DNA from: Dinochytrium kinnereticum
Taxonomy: Eukaryota > Chytridiomycota > Chytridiomycetes > Chytridiales > Chytridiaceae
Direction of reading: 5' to 3'
Assembly (NCBI GenBank): GCA_027604005.1
Contig: JADGJT010000005.1
Coordinates: 62,001-126,000 of the forward strand
DNA length: 64,000 bases
This document shows, piece after piece, positions 282-63,701 of this stretch. The notes beneath the pieces are model-generated. The model saw only the letters and a list, made by a program, of their open reading frames with translations. It had not been told where the DNA came from and made no database searches. The position numbers and the translations under genes were made by a program. Each line of letters starts with the position of its first letter. Position 1 is the stretch's first letter.

Positions 282-2117
282 CTACCAGGACCCGGAAATA
301 AATGAGCTGGAGCTGTCCTTTTCTACCCCATGATACAACGTCCTAAATCCCTCATGGCACTCAGGACCCAACTCGCTAGAAAGCTAGTTAAAGAAAGAGC
401 AGAGCAGGATAGTCTTACCTGTATAGGTTCATAACCGCAACATTTTCCTGTGGTTGCTGCAATATGCCGCCGCCACCGTCACCCACAGACTTGTACAGCC
501 GCTCTGATCGTTGTGTCAACTCTTTTGAAGCCACAGCCACGCCATCCTTATCGGCTGCACCTTCTGTTTTCAACTGCCCACCCCCATTTATGCATCCAGA
601 CGGACAAGCCATTACTTCAACAAAATGGCATACTGTGGCCGTCGATTTCCGCCCCTTAGGAGCTGAACGCGCTGACTTGGCATCTATGGGTTTGATCTTA
701 CGAACGAGGTTCTGAATGTTTCTAAAACCGTTGGCGGTTGCAAAACGAAGCACATCTTCGCCATTCTTCTGAAGCACAATCTCAGAATAATCCAAATTCT
801 TTCCAGGCTGCAATGACACTCCTTTCGCCTGATTTGTCACGTCTTCAGGAGATAAATCAATGCCGAACAGTTGCTTCGCCGCGTATCTGAAGATGAAGCT
901 GCTGTATCCTCCCGAAGTGGAGCCCTCTGTTCCAGCTAGCAATACTTCTCCGTTATCGTTTCTATGGCGCTTTGTAAACCTGAAAACATTAAATATTCAT
1001 ATGTTTCAAGAATTACATTTCTGGCAACTCTGACTCTTCCAGATCATCAATAGACATCTTAAACTCGCCAAACATCCGCTCAAGCTCCCCGGTAGTAATG
1101 ACGCTGTCAACATCTCGTGTCCGATACACATCGTTGTAAAAGTCATTACGTGACGCTTCAAGCTTTTTATCATAGCAAGGCATCACCGTTACGTGAAATA
1201 TGTCATCAGGATTAAGATTAAGCTTGTTTGCAAAATGCTGCTTCACCAAGTATCCCATAATCTGTTGAGGAGATTTAACAGCTGAGATATATGGCAGGAG
1301 ATAAGGATGTGTTTTTTCGGCATAGCAAATCCATCCTAATGGGAACGTTAAAACATGCGAAAGATTTGACATGTCAAAGGATGACGAACCAGGGCAGGCA
1401 CTAGCTAGTACGGGTAAATCAGTGCTCGGCTCATCGGACCCCCTCTTCCTCTTAAACCGTTCGACAAACTCCTTTGCACTTTCCAGCAATGAAAAGTCAC
1501 GCCCGAAAGAGGCATCGAAGAAGTAATCGACGCCAATTTTCTTGAAAAAGGTATTTAACTTTCTGTGCACGGAGAGGGGGGTGAGGTTGTATTTGGCGGC
1601 AAATGATGCTCGAGACTGAGGTGCGAGGGTAACGACAATTGTCTTGGCAGGGGATGGTGGCTCTGCTTGTGATGCGATTTGCTTGTCTTTCAGTGCTTTC
1701 ACTAAATCATGATGGGACTGTGAAGTGATGAGTACGCTTTCGGCTGAAGTGATGCAGCCACTGACAGAGGGAGGAAGGTGAGATGATGCGAAAAAAAAGG
1801 CAACCAAACCTGCATGCTAAACAGTCATTCAAGGAGATCGTGGCCGTTTCCAGCACTTTCTCCTCCCCATCCTTCGATACTTCCAGATATCGCCCGGAGC
1901 CCGCTTCCAACTTTAAGGTTGTCTAACATCAGAATGATTAGCCATGCAACCAGCCTAGTCGCAATCTTACATCTTCGTTGACGGCATCTTTCTTCACCTC
2001 CGGCGGTTTAATGCATGCCTGAACCACGGTTATCATCGGCGCATGGGGATCGTCCATTACCTGCGAGGGCCCAAGAAAGTCGTTGAGGTCTGTTACTTGG
2101 AGGACTCCAGAGAACAT
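282..2117 (-). CDS. NAR1: Nar1, cytosolic iron-sulfur protein assembly factor (iron-only-hydrogenase-like)
   Basis: Coding exons 2117-1971, 1922-1810, 1760-1017, 979-419 and 375-282 join to 552 residues. Nar1 is a component of the cytosolic Fe-S assembly machinery that helps pass 4Fe-4S clusters to apoproteins. Visible hallmarks are the N-terminal cluster cysteines (Cys35 in VVQACIKPP; Cys83, 86 and 89 in NDCLACSGC), the hydrogenase-like cysteine motifs ASACPGS, MPCYDKK and [14 protein letters not shown], and the family-typical short C-terminus ending in Trp. Introns are 37-49 nt. The start ATG faces that of the AIM18-like gene 54 bp away, so the two probably share a promoter. Length fits the family (about 480-600). 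Very secure. Confidence 0.96.
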
Positions 2118-20712: not shown

Positions 20713-23525
20713 CTATTGCAATAGCTCTGAAGCATATGACTTGAGGGCGGCCGCAGATGATCGTCTTGTATGTGAAAAATCGTACCCTATCTCATGCGGC
20801 ATGCCTGAAGCAGCAAAGTTTCCAACTGGAGAGAACAAGCCAGGCGAAGGAATAGACGCGCGGTGGTGGTGATGATGATGGTGATGTGTAGAATTGATGG
20901 ATGATGGGTTATGGAAAAAAGCTAGGGAGCTGGTTGCGAGCGAACCACGGTGGGAGTAGGGGTCGGAGCCCTGCGCCATCAAATCCGCCTCTAGGAGCCC
21001 CATATGCTGACCAGTGGAGGGGTTCAATGACATTTCTGCCTGGTAAACTGACGCATTTATAGCAGCTGGCTGAGACATTCCGTGCATACTCATCCCGCCC
21101 AAACTTTCACTCCCTCGCTCGGAGATGTAGCCAAGGCTAGATAGAGTATGGCCCACCAGTGACATCGAACCATTTGCATAGCTAGAGTATGTAGGTCCCG
21201 CCCCGTCTGAATAATGTGGGTGAGTCGGGTAGTCGCTCATGGCAGAGCCGGTAAGCGTTCTGTGGTCGGTCCTGAAAGAAAGCATATCGTCGGCCTCATC
21301 TTCCTCATCACCCCCCAACCCACGCCCTACCCCATTCCAAAACGCTAATTTTTCCTCTTCTGTCATAACATATTCGCCCTGCCGCTCTTCAGCCGTCTCT
21401 TGGCTGTTCAAAAGGCTGTTGCGATCGGTATAGTAAGGGGCGGGGGAAACAAGAGAAGGGATAAGCAGTTCCGAAGAGCTGTCGCGCTCGAGATCGGTGG
21501 CCCAATAAGCACCTAAACGAGGGCTTATTGACGCGGGCTGAGGTTTTGTGAAACTGATGGCTGGGCTACTCATTGTCCGCATGCGCGGGTTCAGGCTGTC
21601 GTACGTATCCGCCATTACGGATGGGACAAAAGATCGAGTTGAATCCATTGGGAACGATGGCGCTTCCCCAAAGAATGATGCGTGCTCAGAGTAGATTGGC
21701 TGCAAATCGTGACGTTGAAAGTGGCTTGTAGATGGGAGCTTGGATGAGAATGCCTCCGAAAGAGATCTCGTCTTCCCATTATTTGACGACGAATGATATG
21801 ACGAGTTCTCATTTATCGAAGAAGCAGTTGTGGTGAGGAAATCGAAGGGTGAGAGGTTATCGGCTGCAGTAATTTCGGATGGAGAGACACCGCCGTCGCT
21901 CACGTATCCATATGGGATAAGATTATCGATGTCCAGAGCAACAGGTGTGGCATGATTAGGAGCCCGTGTGGGTGGGGAAGCTAGCACCGACAGAGGCTCA
22001 TGATCATTTTCCTTCGGGTATGACTGAAGTTCATCCATTTGAGCCTCAGGGAGTGGCATGTCGGGATGATTTTCTAGGACTCCTTGCGGACCAGTAGCAA
22101 TCGTTACTGAGGCATGCAGCAAAGGGCTTTCCACTTCATCTTCCCAATTCTCAGGAGGCGGTTTTGATACTTCGAATTTGACCGAAGCAGAGCGAGGAAC
22201 CGAAGCATCTGGAGTCCATTCCTTCTCACTCGATGCAACACCGATATGAATCTTGTCAAGCCTTGCAGTCAATGAATCTGTAACTAGCTCAGCTGTACAG
22301 TCATCTCCAGCACTCGTTTTCGACTCCGCATTATGAGATTTTGAAGACAGCAATAGAGTTTCCTGCAGCTTGGAATTTTCTCGAGCGGCTACTGGCTTTT
22401 CAATCTTAATATGTTTCAGGTCATATGTCTCCGAAGGGTCCTGAGGTATTGCCATATCTACTTGTCGCTTTTGTCTTTCTTTTGAGAATTGCTTTCCACT
22501 TCTTAACCCCTTTACAATCCCAGCTTGCGTCTGTGATGGTTGGGATAACAAGATCCCTGGAGACTTCGGATTTTGCATACTTCCAGGTGGCGGTGATGAA
22601 GAAGCTTTCCCAACAACGGCGGGCCCTCTGTTTGAAGCAACTGGCGCTACTGAAGAGCTAGGGCGGGTACTGCTGTTTATAGGTTTCGAGGCTTGAGTGA
22701 TAGTGCCCAGTTTCTATATTGGTATTAAGGTAAGGATATTTAAGAAGACAAGAGAAAAGCTCTAAGTCGCCTACATTCATCTTAATCCTTGAAGTCTTTA
22801 TGCTTCCGGACTTAGGAGCTGTCTGAAGCTTTGGCACCAGAAATCGAAGTCGTTCGAGCTCTTCCTGATCGGAATTTGCTGAAGCAAAATCAAAAGGTCT
22901 GTCTGACGCTGTCGACGGTTTTCCCTCTCCAACTTTCCTGGAAGCAGCGGGTTGTGCAGATGAGGATGTTACTTTCGCTGCCCAATCCACTGAAGGCTTT
23001 TGTAAAGCGGAGGCTGATATGCTGAGCCCTGAGGATTTTGGGATTGGATTGGCGGCTAGTGATGGCTAAGAAGTAGAAAAGTCGACAATAAGTAAATGCA
23101 GAATGCAAGTAAGGGCCAATAAAGTTACATACAAACTCCTCCTCAAATGGATCGATTGATTTTGCTTTCGATTGCTGATGTTGCTGGTGCTTGGCCTTTC
23201 CTTCTGCAATACAAGTAAAAAACTAATTAATGGGAACTCTTCTACCTATCAAAGCCCCTTCCATGGGCTTAAAAGAACCTAATGTTGCAGTGCTAAGCTG
23301 GATAGTTGATATAGTAGCGGACGACTTTCTCCGGGCCTTATTGGCTGCTTCCAAAGTTGATGTTGATGCAATAGCTCCTCCTCCTCCAGTCCGAGCAGGC
23401 CAGGCGCTTGCTGCACTCCCGGAGCTTCCTTTAGCCATGCTACTCCCAACAAGACCGACATTAGCTCCTTTGACGTTTGAGCCCGATCCAATTGATGTAG
23501 ATGGCATGTTTGAGTGAGTTTTCAT
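20713..23525 (-). CDS. Large Ser/Pro/His-rich, mostly disordered protein of unknown function
   Basis: Exons 23525-23246, 23203-23133, 23065-22775 and 22713-20713 give 880 residues. Start is the first in-frame ATG. The open frame upstream lacks one. The sequence is low-complexity throughout. Noticeable pieces are a Gly/Ala/Ser-rich N-terminus, the short motif FEEEFPSLA, the peptide EEEKLAFWNGVGRG, a run of eight histidines and a basic end (SHTRRSSAAALKSYASELLQ). EEFPSL-type motifs occur as short linear motifs in several RNA-associated eukaryotic proteins, but that is weak. No folded domain is recognised. Splicing is well supported: three introns of 42-67 nt keep one frame. Divergent to LRRC23, 275 bp away. 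Confidence 0.75.
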
Positions 23526-51845: not shown

Positions 51846-54800
51846 ATGTTGTACGGCGGCGAAGAAGATTTGGTCGCTGACCGCATCATCTACTTGAATG
51901 ATCCCATTAAGAACGAGGCTGCAAAGTTTCTTCATAACCGCATCACCACTGCCAAGTACAATGTCTTCACGTTCATTCCCAGGTTTCTTTTTGAGCAGTT
52001 TTCGCGCTACGCCAACCTTTTCTTCCTTTTTATAGGCTGCATCCAGGTGAGGATTTGTGTCGTTCGTATATTGCTGACCTTGCCTCCAGCAAATTCCAGA
52101 TTTGTCACCTGTAAACAAGTTGGGAACCATCATCCCGCTGTCTATTGTCCTGCTCGCCTCTGGTATCAAGGAGGTTCTTGAAGACATAAAGCGCCATCAG
52201 CAGGATGCTGAAGTGAACTCACGTCTCGTCAAAGTTTTGCATGGATCCTCTTATGTTGACAAGCCATGGCGAGATGTTGTAGTTGGTGACATTGTTCGGG
52301 TTGAGAACGGTCAGTTCTTCCCTGCCGACCTGGTTTTGCTATCAAGTTCTGAGCCGGACGCTCTTTGTTACATTGAGACAAGTAATCTGGATGGGTATGT
52401 TACTTTAGACTGTTGATCCGAGAAACTAATGTTTTATTAGTGAAACCAACTTGAAGATTCGACAGGGTCTGACTGAAACTGCTCACTTACTTACCCCCGA
52501 GGATGTTTCCAGGATGGAGGGTGTTATCAAATCGGAGCTTCCCAATAATTCGTTATACACTTATGAAGGGACTCTTCGACTTGGAAACAAAGAGGTTCCG
52601 GTTGACCCTACTCAGCTGCTTCTACGAGGTGCTATGCTCCGAAATACACGCTGGATTTATGGTGTCGCGGTGTTTACTGGGCACGAATCAAAACTCATGA
52701 AGAATTCTACGTATGTTTAACAATTTAGACTCTGCCTATACCTATCTGAAACTTTATCGTTCATCTCTCTTTTTCTTAAAAGGGCAACACCGGTTAAATC
52801 CACCAAAGTTGAAAGGATGGTTAACAACCAAATCGGATATTTGTTTATTATTTTGGTCTGCTTGGCCGTTATCTGCGCTCTTGGAACATTGAATCGCCAG
52901 GTACTATCTTCGAAAAAGAAAAAAATCTAACTATTGGCAATAGCTCAACTCTTCTTTTGAGACTACTATTCTGTTTTTTAATAGAAACGATGCCTTGCCA
53001 TACTTGTTCTGGAATATCCTTACTTTCATGATTCTGTATAACAACCTGATCCCTCTCAGGTATAATTTTTTTTTTCTAGAGGATGAAACTAATTCGATTT
53101 AAGCTTGATTGTTACGATGGAATTTGTGAAGTTTTACATCGCATCTTTGATCAACTCCGATATAGATATGTACCACGAACAAACTGACACACCAGCGATT
53201 GCCCGGACGTCATCCTTGGTCGAAGAGCTTGGGCAAATCGATTATATTTTTTCAGATAAGACTGGAACTCTCACTTGTAACATCATGGAATTTCGCATGT
53301 GTTCAATTGGTGGAATTGCTTATACAGATATCGTTCCAGATGAGAAAAAGATTCAGATTGATGAAAATGGCAAAGAAACGGTTGGTTTTTTGTTTTTTTT
53401 CCTTTAGAAAAAACTAAGATATCTATTTTCTTCCAACTAGGGTTACCACACCTTTGAGAGGCTGTTCGCAAATGCCGTTAGCCACCCAACTGGTCCTACT
53501 ATTAAAGAATTCCTCACCCTTCTTTCGGTCTGCCATACCGTTATTCCGGAAACGTTTGAAGATGAGCCTGGCAAGATTGTTTACCAAGCCTCCTCGCCTG
53601 ATGAAGGTGCTCTTGTTAAAGGAGCCCAAACTCTTGGATACACATTTACCGTAGGCATACTCCTTTAGTATATCGCTTAACATTTTCTAGACTCGTCGAC
53701 CAAAATCAGTTACAATTACTCACGATGGTATCGAGGAAGAGTGGGAGGTGCTTAACATTTGCGAGTTCAACTCGACCAGGAAGAGAATGTCATCCGTTGT
53801 TCGAGGCCCTGACGGAAGTATCAAGCTTTACATCAAGGGTGCGGATACTGTTATTTTTGAGCGTCTTGCGAAGGAAGGAAACGATTTCCTAGATGCTACT
53901 TGTGTTCACCTCGAGGTACGTACTTCTGAAAGTATTCAACTTCGACTGCTATTCCGAATACAATATTCAAACAGCACAATTCTCTTTAGGAGTACGCTAA
54001 CGAAGGCCTCCGGACCCTCTGCATTGCCTATCGAGATATTAGTGAAGAGGAATACAAGGAATGGCAGGTTATTTACGACAAAGCCGCCACCACTATCAAC
54101 AACCGTGGAGATGAATTGGACGCTGCTGCAGAGCTTATTGAGAAAGATCTTATTTTACTCGGCGCGACTGCAATTGAGGACAAGTTACAGGATGGTGTTC
54201 CTGACACTATTCACACATTGGCAACTGCTGGTATCAAGCTTTGGGTTCTGACGGGTGATAGACAGGAGACAGGTATATTTTAGTGGTTTAATATTTCCCG
54301 GCATTCTTTATTTTTTTAACTTTAAAATTTCTTTGAAAGCTATAAACATTGGATACTCCTGCAAGCTACTCACTGAGGAGATGTCACTTATTATCTGCAA
54401 TGAGGAGACGCATTACGACACCAGAGACTTTTTGGAGAAGAAGCTTATGGCCGTGAAGGGAGGTCTTGATATGGATAGTATAGCCGCCAGTAACCAGATC
54501 CTGGGAACCAAGAAAAAGCCGGCTAAGCTTGATAAAGAGGCATTCAATGACCCTGAGGTGGGAAGTATAATTACGTATAAACTATTAACCATAATCAATA
54601 TGTATTCAGCCCTTGGCACTAATCATCGATGGTCGTTCGCTCGCGTTTGCTCTTGAGGAGGATATAAAATACCTCTTCCTTGAGCTAGCCTGCATGTGTA
54701 AGGCCGTTATCTGCTGTCGTGTTTCCCCTCTCCAGAAAGCCCTTGTGGTTAAGCTCGTCAAGAAGAACGTTTTGGGGTCCGTGACTTTAGCTATTGGAGA

Positions 54801-56023
54801 TGGTGCGAACGATGTAGGAATGATCCAAGCCGCCCACGTCGGTGTGGGTATCTCGGGTATGGAAGGGCTTCAAGCAGCTCGATCTGCAGATTTTGCTATT
54901 GCGCAGTTCAGATTCCTTCGTAAGCTACTCCTCGTCCACGGTGCCTGGGCTTATTCGAGGTTGAGCAAGCTTATCCTGTACAGCTTTTACAAAAACATTA
55001 CCCTCTACCTTATTCAAATGTGGTACGCATTTGATAATGGTTTCTCTGGTCAGACTCTTTTCGAATCATGGACTCAGTCAGCCTATAATGTTGGTTTCGC
55101 TATTCTCCAGCCCGTCGCCATTGGTATATTTGATCAGTTTGTAAATGCTAGGATGTTGGACCGTTACCCTCAATTGTACCGCCTAGGCCAGCGCTCCGAA
55201 TTCTACAATAACGCTGCGTTTTGGGGATGGATCGCCAACTCTTTCTTCCACTCAATGATTATGTATTATAGCTTTGCGGCTATCTACGGAGATTCCACTG
55301 TCTTGGAGAGTGGACGTGGGGCGTCGAACTGGCTTCTTGGTGCTATGGTATACACGACTGATCTCTTGACCATCACATGGAAGGCGGCACTTGTTTGCGA
55401 TACTTGGGTCAAGTTTACTCACATCGCGATCTTTGGCAGTATTGCGCTTTGGTTTGTCATGTTCCCAGTCTACGTCATTGTCGGCCCTGAAATTCACCTT
55501 TCTGAAGAATTGTACGGCATGGTCCCACAGCTCTTCCCTTCGCTTGTCTTCTGGGCGAGTATCCTATTGGTCCCTGTAATCGCCAACTTGAGAGACTTTG
55601 TCTGGAAATAGTTAGTTCCTTTCCTTCCTTCATGCCGATTGAACATCAACCTTCTGTTGCCGCTAGTTGCTTGTCATAGAATGCTTGCCTAACAATCAAA
55701 CAATCATACATCTAGCTTCAAGCGCAACTACGGACCTCGATCCTACCACATTGTCCAGGAGATTCAGAAATACAACATTCCGGATTACCGTCCCCGTATG
55801 GAGTGGTTCAGAAAGGCCGTTCATAAGGTCAGACAGACCCAGAGGGTCAAGAGGACACGTGGTTTTGCCTTTTCTCAGAACGAGAGCGGCCAGGCAAACC
55901 TTATCCGTCTCTACGACACTACCAGGAGGAAGCCTCAGTAAGTGTTATACTACTTTTTCTATCTGCGACAGAAACTCGATAAAGAATGCTGATCAGTCGT
56001 GTGCTTCTACTTCTAGGGGTTGA
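51846..56023 (+). CDS. P4-type ATPase, Drs2-like aminophospholipid flippase
   Basis: Thirteen coding exons (51846-52046, 52090-52394, 52441-52710, 52783-52900, 52944-53059, 53104-53380, 53441-53650, 53691-53915, 53990-54272, 54340-54557, 54610-55610, 55716-55937, 56017-56023) give 1150 residues. Landmarks: [20 protein letters not shown] at TM1, [20 protein letters not shown] (DGET-type actuator joined across an intron), phosphorylation site [30 protein letters not shown] and [12 protein letters not shown]. Ten helices are expected. The tail has [12 protein letters not shown], a Drs2-type autoregulatory/GAF-like stretch. It flips PS/PE to the cytosolic leaflet of Golgi or plasma membrane. The last coding exon is 7 nt and holds only the final G-stop. 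Confidence 0.95.
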
Positions 56024-57447: not shown

Positions 57448-60400
57448 ATGCTTCGTCCACTCCTGGCATGCCTTCTATTCATAAACACAGTAGCTAATGC
57501 AGCTCTACCAGGTAATTCCCGTAACTATCCTGCCCAATCTAATAGCGTTTTATAATGGCAGTCAACTTGACGGCAAGCGGAGCCTCTTTCCCCTCTGATA
57601 TACACTTGGAGCTTGTAGACCTCTTCAAGAGGGAGTATTGTATGTCTATCCCAGATATCATTAACCCTAACCCTTGTTCTTTCACTACAACATAATCAGC
57701 CCAAGATGTTTCAGCATTCAACTACATCCCCTTTAACAGTGATCGCGGTCAAAGCGATCCCTACAACAATATCACTCAGTGGGGAGGCTCCGACGTTGCT
57801 ATCAACCGCACCAAATATCCTGGCCCACCGAATCTTTTGGCTTTTCCGGCTGTTGCGGGGTAAGATAATGCCAAAAGATATAGGCATTTTTTTCAGCAAA
57901 GCTCACACCACTTTTACCACAAAACGAAATCTCTCCTAGCGCCATCGCCATCTCTGCCAATATCCCTGAACTTTCTGGTATCGCGACACCCAGCACTCCA
58001 ATGCGCCTTAGTCGATCCGCCCTTCCTCTTATCGCCCGAAATGTGATTCAGTTCTGGAACGACACGCGCATTCTTGACTGCCAAGATAACACCACCGTTC
58101 GGTCTATACTCGCAAGCATTAATCATGCCATAATCCCAATCATTCGGAGCCCAGGATCTGGCACTACCATCAATTATGTGCGGGCCCTCACCAGCATGGA
58201 TCCTGAGTTCCCTAACCTTAGCAGCCTTGCCGTTGTTGCTGGTCCTCTGGCCATTACTGCTGTATCTAATCCGGCCGTTGGGAATATTCACTCAAGTATT
58301 CCGTACACGGTAAAATAATCTTATTATCATAGTCATGAATAACGCTTTATCATATGCAGATGACATATATGGATGCGAGAGAGCTTGCTATTGCTAACGA
58401 GAATACCCCAACTAAACCTCTAGTATCGATATCCATAGAAAATAAAAATGGGGAGTATATCTTGCCAAGCACGAGCGGCATTAGGGTAGGTGGTTGCATC
58501 TTGTTATCTCTATTATCTAACAATGACATCAATCACTAGATTGCTCTTAGTGGCGTTGACACTTCAAATATTGATCCGCAGAACTCAAATGTGATCGCTG
58601 TCGATTCTTCTTTATCTGGTGCCTACCCTATTTCCCTGATTACCAACTATGTTATCCGCCAGGACGATATTTCTGATGATCTGGATGTTACCGTATGGAC
58701 ACTACGTTTTCTATGGTGGACTCTTACGAACCCTAAGGTATGTTTTTTTTTTCATGCCTGCACTTCTTTAAATCATTTTTTCTAAAACCGTATAATTAAT
58801 CACAATTGTTCTTTCTCTCGTTCAAAACCTGCTAGCTCGTAGCTCTTGTGGAATCCAAGAGCTTTGTTCACCTCAAAAACACTTCAGCCAGCCACCTTAG
58901 CTTAAATGTTTTAAAATCCCACCGTTTCAAAGGCAACATGACAATATTTGGACAGTCTATTTGTGACTTGAACCCAGGAGATCCTTCGCCTTGCAAGAAC
59001 GGAGGATATTGCCCCAATACCTTACCTTTCCAGGTTTGCATATACTATTTAAACTGCTTTTGGTACGTAAGAACCATTCCTCAATACTGTCTTTCTCCTC
59101 ATTATAGCCGGCTGGAGTAGCCTGCATTTGTCGTAATGGCTACATCAACAAGGACAGGGCCGATTGTTCAGAACGTGCGCCTATATTTATGCCAGACATT
59201 CTCACACGTATCCAGCTAGGAATGGCCGCTGCTGCCGGAATTGTAGTCATCGCAATTTGGGGATTGCTCCTTCTCTATAGCCGCCACCATAAGATTAGGT
59301 CTATTGCCCCTTCTTGTTGCAGTTTGATACTTCTCGGATGCCTTCTGGGAGCATTCTCGGTAGTTGCCTATGCGGCGACTCCAAGTGACATTATGTGCAG
59401 GTTTCGTGCGTTCTTTCCGACTTTAGCGTTCGGTTTAGTATTTGGGTAAGTTGAAATTTGCTCCTCCTTTGCCTTAATGGCTGTGCTTTAATGACCCATT
59501 TAACTAAGTAGACCTTACTAGAATGATAATGCTTAAGACGTACCGTATTTACCTCATATTTGGCTACCGACACATATCGGCTGCTCGCAGTATACGCAAC
59601 TGGACGCTTATATGCCTCACTCTTTTGATCGCCGTAATTGAGGTTGGAATATGCACTGGTTACGTCTTCATCGCGCAGCCCGTTCTTTCTCAGGTTTATA
59701 TCTCTGCCTCCTCGTCAGATGGAAGCGGTAACACGTCCACTTCTTTATCACATTCCTCGAGCTACTTGACTTGTAAGCCGAGTAATAAGAATACCTATGT
59801 TGTGCAAATCATGGAGGCAGTTCTGTTTGCATTCAATGGTGGAATCATGTTTATATGCCTGGTTTTAGCGTTCAAAACGCGCGGTGCTTATAAGCGTTAT
59901 GTAGAGTCGAAAGCTATTGGCCTAACAACCTACGTTGTCGCAATCTCAGTCCTCGTTGCGTTGGTAAGTTTCTTTTTATCCTTCCTACAATTTTACTTAT
60001 CAAGGAACTCATTGCTTTGATTTGCATCCAAATGACACTTAGCCTGTGATCTACGTCGTCCCAATCGAGAGCATTCGCACCAATCTTGTCATTAACGGTG
60101 TTCGAAGTATTCTTTTGGTCGTACTATCCACCGCTGTTCCACTCATCTTATATGCCCCTCGCATTCTTGAGGCCCTTGAAAACAAACGGGATTTAGAGGA
60201 GGATATCGACGTTCGACCGGCGAATATCAGGTCTGGTCATGGAGGACCCTGGCACGCTCCTGGGAGCATTCCTGCCAGTCCTGCATTTCAACCGATAGAC
60301 GCGTCTGATGTGCTTGGCGGAGTTCTAGACGCTGGAAATAGAAAGAGAAGGGCTCCAGAAAACCGGAACCTCCAGACTTTTACGGTGAGTTCAGAGGCAT

Positions 60401-61823
60401 GTCTTATTCCTCATTCTGCTTTTTTTGTACCGCCTCGTTTAAGATTTTTCCTCTGGAATACGATTATCTAAAGTCTTTTTAGTTCGAGATTGGATTCCGA
60501 AAAAACCGCTTCGGGTCTGTGTGGCAATCGGCAGTCCTCATGGTTTTTCCGGAGCTCGATTTGATATTTTTCTTGGATTCATTTAAATGCGGCAATACCC
60601 TTCAATCCTTCCGTTTGTCAACATCCGAAATAGAAGGCTTTGTTAAATCTGGAGGCTTTAAAAACGTCGCGAGGCGGAAGTCAAAGATGGGAAAAGATGG
60701 AAACGGGGATATTGATATTTCTCTTGGGAAATGGCATGGTGACAACGAGAACGTTTCTTCTAGTAGCTCAACTAGTGGAATCCATCAGTATCCACCTGGA
60801 TATATGGAGGGTGTGGAAGAAAATGGCAATCAAGCAGCTGGAGTAAGCAACGGAGGAAACCCTATCACTATTCTTCCGCGAGGAGATCATCACGGATATT
60901 TCATTGAGTTTTCCGACGACAATCGGCTTAGAGCCTTCTACGATATCCACGAGGTGGTTAGGTCAAGGGCATCGGGGGTATCTACAGTTGCCGGACGTAT
61001 AGTCTCACGGTCGCAAAGGCTAAACAACACACCTATTATTAACGTTGTGAAGAACTCAAACACCGCCGACCCCAGCCATGACAGTTCAACATCTCTCACG
61101 GGATCGCCTGCAACCTTGGTGCCTTCAACTCCTCCAGGAGAGACTTTCGAGGGAGGAAACGATAGATTCGGTGGGCCTCGTCACGCGTCTTCTAACACGA
61201 TTCTGACGATCGGTAGCGGAACTAGACTTAACCCTCTTGACCCTGTTCCCGCCAGTCCTAACATGCCCCTGTCCCCAAAGCTAGAAGCGTCAACTATTGC
61301 ATCTGTTCTGTCTATATCAATGCCTCCTCCAGCTGCTTACTCCCATGGGCCTTCATCTCCAAGGTGGGAGAATCCTTCGACACTTATTTCTCCACTGGCT
61401 CGAGCAGTAGCAGGCGGTTTCATTGCGCCTCCCCCATCTCTTCCTCCTTGGGCGCGGAAACTCGAAATCTCTCTGCCCCAACCAGCGACCTTTGGGGCGT
61501 CTGAAGAAAGCCATAGAGCGATTCCGGAGCCGCTGAGAAACTATAATGATAATGACCTTGAGGACTCTTGGCTTCCCCCGCCAGTAGTGGCTTCATCAGT
61601 CTTACAACCTGCTCCTCGGACCACTCCTCCGACTCTCCACCGCTCTAGATCAGCGTCAAACATTGCTTCACAAACGCATCAAACTGATTGTTTTCGAGGC
61701 GGGCGGCGGCCGTCGGCCGGGGCCGTTGAAGAAAGGGGAGTTGGAAGAGGAAGATATTCTGGACGCGTCAGGTTTCCCAGTAGTGGAGTTGCCTTGAGCA
61801 GTCGGTCAACGAACCCAGAGTGA
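57448..61823 (+). CDS. Chimeric receptor: PstS-like phosphate-binding domain + EGF-like module + class C GPCR seven-helix domain
   Basis: Exons 57448-57511, 57562-57639, 57700-57859, 57940-58309, 58360-58485, 58540-58737, 58836-59033, 59108-59445, 59522-59963, 60043-60384 and 60483-61823 give 1218 residues. Signal peptide 1-19 (LLACLLFINTVANA). Residues 22 to about 330 resemble bacterial PstS: ASGASFP at 26-32, GGSDVAI at 76-82, FWND at 139-142, RSPGSGTT at 170-177. These correspond to the phosphate-contact loops (Asp79, Arg170, Ser174 and Thr176 as candidate ligands). Six cysteines at 375, 385, 391, 404, 406 and 418 form an EGF-like module. Seven helices (about 433-740) follow with the class C pattern: Cys at start of TM3, AFKTRGAYKRYVESKAIG before TM6. 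The 480-residue cytosolic tail is Ser/Pro-rich, with an unassigned segment after TM7. Predicted nutrient-sensing GPCR. The ligand is inference. Confidence 0.88.
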
Positions 61824-62234: not shown

Positions 62235-63701
62235 ATGAAGGCGACACTTCAAAAGAAAACTCCACTATCATTGGTCTCCCGGTTATTGTCCATCACTCTA
62301 TACATCCTCACCATCTATGGCGTAAGCCCCAGATTCATTTGTGTTGATGACCATCTAACTATACACACGATCGCTCCCAGGCAATCCTCTCTGTCCTTGT
62401 CGCTTTTCCAAGGGAGACGCAGCCCTTCCTCATATATCTCCACTGGTTGAATATACCGCTGCGGGTTGGCCACGACTCGGCTGCTAGATTTGGTTTCCGT
62501 GCTGGCACCTTACGGAATGTTCGTATTCCATCCTCAGATGGCATAGAGCTTGGTAGGCAGGATCTTTCATGGTTCCTTGTGTTCATCTGGAGAACTAACG
62601 AGACTAAAGGCGCATGGCATATCTTGCCTCATGACAAGGCGCAAAACATTCTCTCGCCGTTTCATGCGCATGAAGATGAGTATTTCGATCAGTCTTTAAA
62701 GGAGGCAGACCGAGTCTTCCTCTACTTTCATGGCAACGCAGGCAACCGTGCAACATTTGTTCGGCCTGCCTTCTACAAGACTTTGACTGCCTTCGGAACG
62801 GGAGATTCACATGTTATTACAGTGGACTACCGAGGATTTGGGGATTCTACCGCAGAGGGAGGCACGTACATCGTTCCATCAGAGTCTGGAATGAAGGATG
62901 ATGCATACTCATCTGTGAACTGGGTTATTGGGAAAGGCGTGGACCCGTCAAAGATCATCCTTGTTGGCCACAGCCTTGGATCTGGCGTTGCTACTTTCCT
63001 CGCCCGAAATATGACTATTGATGGTCGGCCTGCGGGCGGTCTTGTTCTGGTTGCTGGATATGCTACCATTCCGGGTTAGAGGCTTTTACGTTTTAACAGC
63101 TTCCATTTCTCCTTTCGTGTATCGCAAATGCGGCTTCTAACCACCACTCAACTTGGTCTTAAATTCAACGTATGTAGATACTGCTTTATCTTACCCAAAT
63201 GTGCCCTTGCTCCGACCATTCACTTTCCACCCGGTTGCAAAGGAGATTGCAAAGTCGGTCGTTGTCGAACGCTGGGAATCAGTAAAATACATTAAGGACG
63301 TGACAAAGTCACCTATCCTCCTCGTTCACGGTCGTGCTGATCACGAGATTGAGATATGGCAGGCCAAATCCAACTTTTTTTCAGCGGTAGAAGGGCGTGT
63401 TGGTGGCAACAAGAAGGTTACCCCTCCGAACGCTGCGGACCTCATGAAAGCAGACGACGACGAAAAATCGCCCACTGTTTTTTCGGATGGGCTATTTAGC
63501 GTGCGACCGATTGGTGGAAAGGGTGCTAAGGAAGGGCGGCTATGGCTAAGCAACATCCGCGATGCCGTGGGATCACCGCAGACCGCAAGTTTGGGCGAGA
63601 TTTGGCTGCTTGAGATCACGCATGCGAGCCACAACGACGTTGGCAAGTTCCAGCTGTTTTCCGATGCGGTCGAGGAGTGGCTGCTGCACCATGGGAAGTA
63701 A
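62235..63701 (+). CDS. ABHD12-like serine hydrolase (lysophospholipase/monoacylglycerol lipase type)
   Basis: Exons 62235-62321, 62381-62552, 62610-63074 and 63178-63701 give 415 residues. A single N-terminal membrane anchor (LLSITLYILTIYGAILSVLV) is followed by an alpha/beta hydrolase: oxyanion motif YFHGNAGNRATF, VDYRGFGDST, nucleophile GHSLGSG, acid in LLVHGRADHEIEIW, and His in ITHASHNDVGK. The order and the anchor match the ABHD12/ABHD13-like family (yeast YNL320W-type relatives). Predicted hydrolysis of lysophospholipids or monoacylglycerol at the ER surface. There is an insertion of about 60 residues between the Asp and His regions (GGNKKVTPPNAADLMKADDD), longer than in animal ABHD12. 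Confidence 0.88.

Follow-up and report, generated by a model that had tools for sequence, protein, structure and literature searches.

A spliced gene at positions 57448-61823 (plus strand) of the window, the whole 64,000-nucleotide stretch analysed here (C5:62001-126000 in the 22.4 Mb genome of Dinochytrium kinnereticum, order Chytridiales), probably encodes a class C G-protein-coupled receptor (GPCR) whose extracellular trap is of the type II, PstS phosphate-binding kind and which would work by the mechanism set out below. Frame-guided splicing gave 11 exons that join into one reading frame of 1218 residues with its sole stop at the end, and the ten introns, of 50-98 bases, are all GT-AG. An earlier reading of this DNA from its letters alone (the sequence-only reading) had proposed a single gene with ten introns, and splicing recovers exactly these ends. 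The zoosporic fungal host that it suggested was borne out by a public protein of D. kinnereticum, HDU67_007746 (P0001), which has 100% identity over 98% of the 760 residues searched. Since that public model starts at an ATG within intron 1, the signal-peptide exon, where hydrophobicity is maximal at residues 11-15, is absent from it. The exons, defined by frame and splice sites, are as follows.

Exon 1, 57448..57511, plus strand: signal peptide (MLRPLLACLLFINTVANA...), from frame and GT-AG splice
Exon 2, 57562..57639, plus strand: PstS-type domain begins; loop ASGASFP (S30, F31)
Exon 3, 57700..57859, plus strand: PstS-type domain; S61 and loop GGSD (D79)
Exon 4, 57940..58309, plus strand: PstS-type domain; loop R170-SPGSGT-T176 at 58145-58165
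Exon 5, 58360..58485, plus strand: PstS-type domain
Exon 6, 58540..58737, plus strand: PstS-type domain
Exon 7, 58836..59033, plus strand: PstS-type domain ends; first half of the epidermal growth factor (EGF)-like module from about 58956
Exon 8, 59108..59445, plus strand: second EGF-like half to about 59173; transmembrane helices (TM) 1 and 2 and the first half of TM3
Exon 9, 59522..59963, plus strand: rest of TM3, TM4, TM5 and most of TM6; LKTYRIY, the cysteine of extracellular loop 2 (ECL2), ESK
Exon 10, 60043..60384, plus strand: end of TM6, TM7 to about 60195, start of the cytosolic tail
Exon 11, 60483..61823, plus strand: cytosolic tail and stop; predicted two-part pleckstrin homology (PH)-like fold at about 60483-60638 and 60861-61022

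The membrane domain is that of a class C receptor by both profile and fold. The 7tm_3 profile matched residues 437-697, scoring 115.4 bits where the cut-off is 33.5 (E 4.6e-33), and the predicted structure of the window protein has the seven transmembrane helices of the class C fold. Three features that we take to be class C marks, a cysteine pair in TM3 and ECL2, KTxR in TM3 and ESK or EAK in TM6, are present in all 11 members of the receptor family described below; disulphides are presumably formed in the receptor. These observations, together with the fact that we know of no transport activity in class C seven-helix domains, argue against a transporter or transceptor in which the trap would feed phosphate to the seven-helix domain, a reading that we consider very unlikely here. 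It has been published for fusions of solute-binding protein (SBP) or periplasmic-binding protein (PBP) domains to 7tm_3 in Plasmodiophora, four of which are named phosphate transporters in the accessible text (PMC4815078).

The ectodomain matched the PstS profile TIGR00975 over residues 24-345 (E 5.4e-32). Comparison of its predicted structure with PstS, set beforehand as a check, recovered the PstS type II binding-protein fold from the AlphaFold 2 (AF2) model, and ANF_receptor, the profile of type I traps, had no match in the window protein at E up to 1. The type II periplasmic-binding-like domain named by the sequence-only reading is therefore supported as a predicted fold. The loops ASGASFP, GGSDVAI and RSPGSGTT that it had picked out are present, and all three align with the ligand loops of PstS. 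We take the phosphate contacts of Escherichia coli PstS to be Thr10, Phe11, Ser38, Asp56, Arg135, Ser139, Gly140 and Thr141; the window protein has S30, F31, S61, D79, R170, S174, G175 and T176 at these positions, with Thr10 kept as serine. In the same order the positions are covered in 7, 7, 8, 9, 11, 11, 11 and 11 of the 11 receptors, part of the N-terminus being missing from four rows (P0002, P0003, P0007, P0052), and wherever a position is covered it is kept. Among the seven full-length receptor rows, 53 of 351 columns (15%) are invariant and all eight contacts fall within them. This invariance argues against a phosphate-blind receptor, in which the PstS fold would be a dimerising or adhesion module and the cue something else. 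Such a receptor seems quite improbable to us, even though other class C loci of the genome bear unrelated ectodomains and a membrane-type gene on contig C73 has a PstS-like domain with an altered GSGT loop. We infer, on good grounds, that phosphate is the ligand of the window receptor. The ligand role of the PstS arginine is described in the accessible text of PMC12421899.

Several points nevertheless weigh against a phosphate-binding trap that drives signalling. The TIGR00975 score of 111.1 bits lies far below the equivalog cut-off of 205, as does that of NF008171, at 43.9 against 339. Of the two profiles that the sequence-only reading had singled out, 7tm_3 was found as above, whereas PF12849 (PBP_like_2) gave no match to the window protein at E up to 1, in a search where the HMMER filters discard most weak matches, although it stood above its cut-off in 9/9 relatives scanned (P0052 being left out). 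Because PF12849 misses the window protein, its domain was approached through TIGR00975, the PDB and the fold. The position of E. coli Asp137 is non-Asp in 11/11 receptors (Pro in eight, the window protein among them, with single cases of Ala, Lys and Arg), and the edge of the pocket is therefore altered. The hypergeometric probability for the eight invariant contacts, 1.7e-7, is a guide only, because the receptor rows share ancestry and the contacts fall in loops common to them. Twelve free-standing PstS-type rows served for comparison; five are named, all as phosphate transport or PstS, and one organism is given, a Polyangiaceae bacterium. These rows were picked by similarity and were also part of the AF2 input alignment, so that the contact match and the fold match were both favoured. 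The mean predicted local distance difference test score (pLDDT) of the whole AF2 model is 69, and a retained pocket alone does not show that closure drives signalling by the seven-helix domain.

The replacement of Asp137 raises the alternative that the same receptor binds an organic phosphate, a phosphonate or another oxyanion. Asp is present at this position in all 12 of the free-standing rows and gone from every receptor, and the accessible text of PMC12421899 describes a SAR11 PstS in which the ligand arginine is changed to proline and the larger cavity may admit larger phosphorus compounds. The eight contacts of the receptors are intact, however, arginine included, and phosphate complexes have been solved for E. 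coli PstS variants in which Asn, Gly or Thr replaces Asp137 (PDB 1quk, 1qui and 1qul, by title), so that phosphate binding is compatible with the loss of Asp137. Another ligand is thus fairly unlikely in our estimate.

Between the trap and the first helix the window protein has six cysteines within residues 375-418, where the sequence-only reading had seen an EGF-like module. Two spacing patterns of EGF-like modules were both matched by 11/11 family members, and the joined pattern had no chance match when the frames of the window that are at least 60 residues long (38,685 residues in all) were searched. EGF-type models ranked first in Pfam for all ten stalk pieces tested, none above its cut-off; the best PF00008 score was 20.5 against a cut-off of 21.5 (P0003), and the window piece scored 15.7. 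NCD3G, the profile of the nine-cysteine domain, was without a match in this protein up to E 1. According to the accessible text of PMC5168858, that domain occupies the corresponding position in animal class C receptors except GABA-B.

Intron 7 of the window gene cuts through the EGF module, and the trap-7TM joint is common to ten further proteins with the same plan, from Phlyctochytrium planicorne (three), P. bullatum (three), Blyttiomyces sp., Irineochytrium annulatum, Chytridium lagenaria (the last two records being short at the C-terminus) and contig C476 of D. kinnereticum itself. The C476 paralogue has a stop-free frame of 282 codons, 246 of which match the protein before an intron follows, and this frame covers the final 108 of the 352 binding-domain residues, the entire EGF module and the helices to the middle of TM3. 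The joining of trap and 7TM is therefore settled at the DNA level. Two adjacent genes wrongly joined, an explanation to which the faulty ends of public models in this family might lend colour (P0001 lacks exon 1 and P0006 is merged with a GH47 gene), are rejected on the strength of the uninterrupted C476 frame, the EGF module divided by intron 7 and the joint in ten further proteins, and we give this explanation next to no probability.

At C476 (locus L011, C476:7500-14500), the public model HDU67_007625 (P0006) fuses the GH47 gene with the receptor paralogue; the GH47 exons stop more than 1 kb upstream of the paralogue and look like a separate gene. A genome search with P0005 returned exons of both the window gene and the C476 paralogue, with weak binding-domain matches on C73 and weak 7TM matches on C266 and C370.

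In a tree of the binding domain, the receptors cluster together, apart from the 12 other rows (support 100/100). Three subgroups recur in the 7TM tree: P0001/2/3 (97/95 for the binding domain, 99/99 for the 7TM), P0004/6/51/52 (100/98 and 87/92) and P0005/7 (96/93 for the binding domain when all 23 rows are included, 99/94 for the 7TM). The trees disagree in places, since the receptor-only binding-domain tree leaves P0005/7 unresolved, and P0001/2/3 is joined by P0009 in the binding-domain tree (91/89) and by P0008 in the 7TM tree (95/95); each of these two proteins is long-branched in at least one of the trees. The recurring subgroups indicate that trap and 7TM have largely been inherited together and that the fusion predates the duplications, with P0008 and P0009 unsure. 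A protein search with the binding domain found 42 proteins, of which P0009 is a further chytrid receptor and the other 41 have PF12849; every name among the 16 that are named is phosphate transport or PstS, P0024 names its organism, and judged by length and names the 41 are probably free-standing and bacterial. No free-standing eukaryotic PstS was recognised among the 8000 candidates scored, those sharing most words. A family-profile scan of the genome contigs for a donor of the binding domain confirmed none of 41 pattern-matched stretches, and a distant PstS could escape it because its patterns derive from the receptors.

The cytosolic tail carries a predicted fold that lay outside the sequence-only reading, as did the C476 paralogue and the extent of the family. 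AF2 models, structure comparison and sequence conservation point to a PH-like domain in two halves flanking a low-confidence insert, the remaining tail being mostly of low confidence. Neither PH nor any other Pfam model matched the tail at E up to 10, and a search of PDB sequences gave unrelated matches alone (E 0.21 or worse). We call the domain PH-like for its fold, its sequence giving no PH identity; the top VIA structure-comparison rows also include FERM and Ran-binding domains, which have the same general fold. No PH-like tail fold is known to us among animal class C receptors.

These elements can be assembled into a mechanism. Inorganic phosphate, or a close tetrahedral oxyanion, would bind the cleft through the kept Ser, Phe, Ser, Asp, Arg, Ser, Gly and Thr contacts; the EGF-like stalk would relay closure of the trap to the seven-helix domain, and this domain would signal via a G-alpha protein encoded in the genome, where G-alpha and RGS genes are both present; and the PH-like fold may hold or regulate the receptor at the membrane, at lipid. 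The steps after binding are modelled on the general behaviour of class C receptors and of PH domains. Taken further, and with somewhat less than even confidence, we propose a family of fungal GPCRs that sense extracellular inorganic phosphate through a bacterial-type PstS trap, with EGF stalk and PH-like tail in one chain. Such a receptor for a nutrient anion would carry its own module for membrane lipid, and the family would go back to the ancestor of part of the chytrids and have undergone duplication in them. Zoospore guidance, in line with the substrate finding proposed by the sequence-only reading, is no more than a possible role. The receptor should be easy to test, because its pocket can be compared position by position with that of E. 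coli PstS.

The genome as a whole has 28 listed 7tm_3 matches at about 20 places. We surveyed 20 frames from 15 of 18 class C loci (L017, L020 and L021 were left out), and eight had an ectodomain-type match: Kelch (L015, L022, L027), Bmp (L015), Peripla_BP_5 (L029), an ephrin-receptor-like repeat (L016) and ANF_receptor (L018, and below cut-off L030). Ectodomain match and part of 7tm_3 share an open frame in L016, L027 and L029. Dissimilar ectodomains on class C 7TMs are therefore common in this genome, and because several unrelated ones adjoin such 7TMs it is well suited to studying how class C receptors are assembled. The frame at L027:1403-2428 (minus strand), with Kelch and part of 7tm_3, suggests a class C receptor with a beta-propeller ectodomain; that at L016:3900-5435 (plus strand) pairs the ephrin-receptor-like Cys-rich repeat with part of 7tm_3. 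The PstS-like gene on C73 (L012, C73:20500-26500, minus strand, about 3440 to 790) matched PBP_like_2 with E 4.9e-14, reads ACAS at the GSGT loop and has Asp at the Asp137 position. Judged by eye, it has a probable signal peptide as well as several hydrophobic segments; no 7tm_3 match was found on C73, and the gene possibly encodes a different membrane receptor.

Within the window the receptor gene is preceded by the C-terminus of a phospholipid-translocating P-type ATPase (54595-55608, plus strand) and followed by an alpha/beta hydrolase (62351-63076, plus strand), both of them ordinary genes. Further away are an iron-only hydrogenase large-subunit C-terminal domain (1016-1816, minus strand, E 9.8e-50), perhaps of the common eukaryotic NARF/Nar1 type, and a 666-residue open frame with no Pfam match at E 0.001 (20716-22713, minus strand).

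Two studies from 2016, by Rolfe and others on Plasmodiophora brassicae, a rhizarian, and by Seppala and others on gut fungi, describe related fusions, as does an earlier chytrid study. The sequence-only reading had presented the receptor as a departure from all known class C receptors, a claim that is unsupported in that form: the kind of receptor is already known, because fusions of type II or PBP_like_2 domains to 7tm_3 were printed in 2012 (PMC3251606) and 2016 (PMC5168858, PMC4815078). Krishnan and others (2012) reported PBP_like_2 in the class C receptor SPPG_06488 of the chytrid Spizellomyces punctatus, which, compared by description, resembles the window protein in joining this ectodomain to a chytrid class C 7TM; it differs in that the main text gives the Pfam name alone, with no mention of phosphate, and the accessible text gives no EGF stalk or tail domain (PMC3251606). 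The P. brassicae proteins, SBP or PBP_like_2 fused to 7tm_3 in transcriptome-supported single coding regions, are likewise similar by description, but are read as transporters, and the term EGF is absent from the paper's main text (PMC4815078). Among the gut-fungal class C receptors, almost half have type II domains and some have EGF-like modules; these type II domains are sugar-uptake-like, however, and the EGF-like modules accompany pectin-lyase folds, as far as the accessible text describes them (PMC5168858). Glutamate-class sequences number 918 in a 2025 survey of fungal GPCRs, from whose accessible text the terms periplasmic and PF12849 are absent (PMC12842992). In searches of the open-licence literature, judged by their listings, we recognised no paper on a PstS-EGF-7TM-PH chain, and an EGF stalk with a PstS trap, an intact pocket with lost Asp137 and a PH-like tail were not found there. 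E. coli PstS itself differs in being a soluble transporter subunit that has Asp137 and is without stalk, 7TM and tail. Should our inference hold, a class C 7TM is driven here by a phosphate trap of type II, and evolution would have found a second construction for Venus-flytrap receptors. Metabotropic glutamate and GABA-B receptors share with the window protein the class C 7TM, in fold and sequence, and the plan of a trap over a 7TM, but their traps are type I, whereas the window protein has a type II trap, an EGF-like module and a predicted PH-like tail fold.
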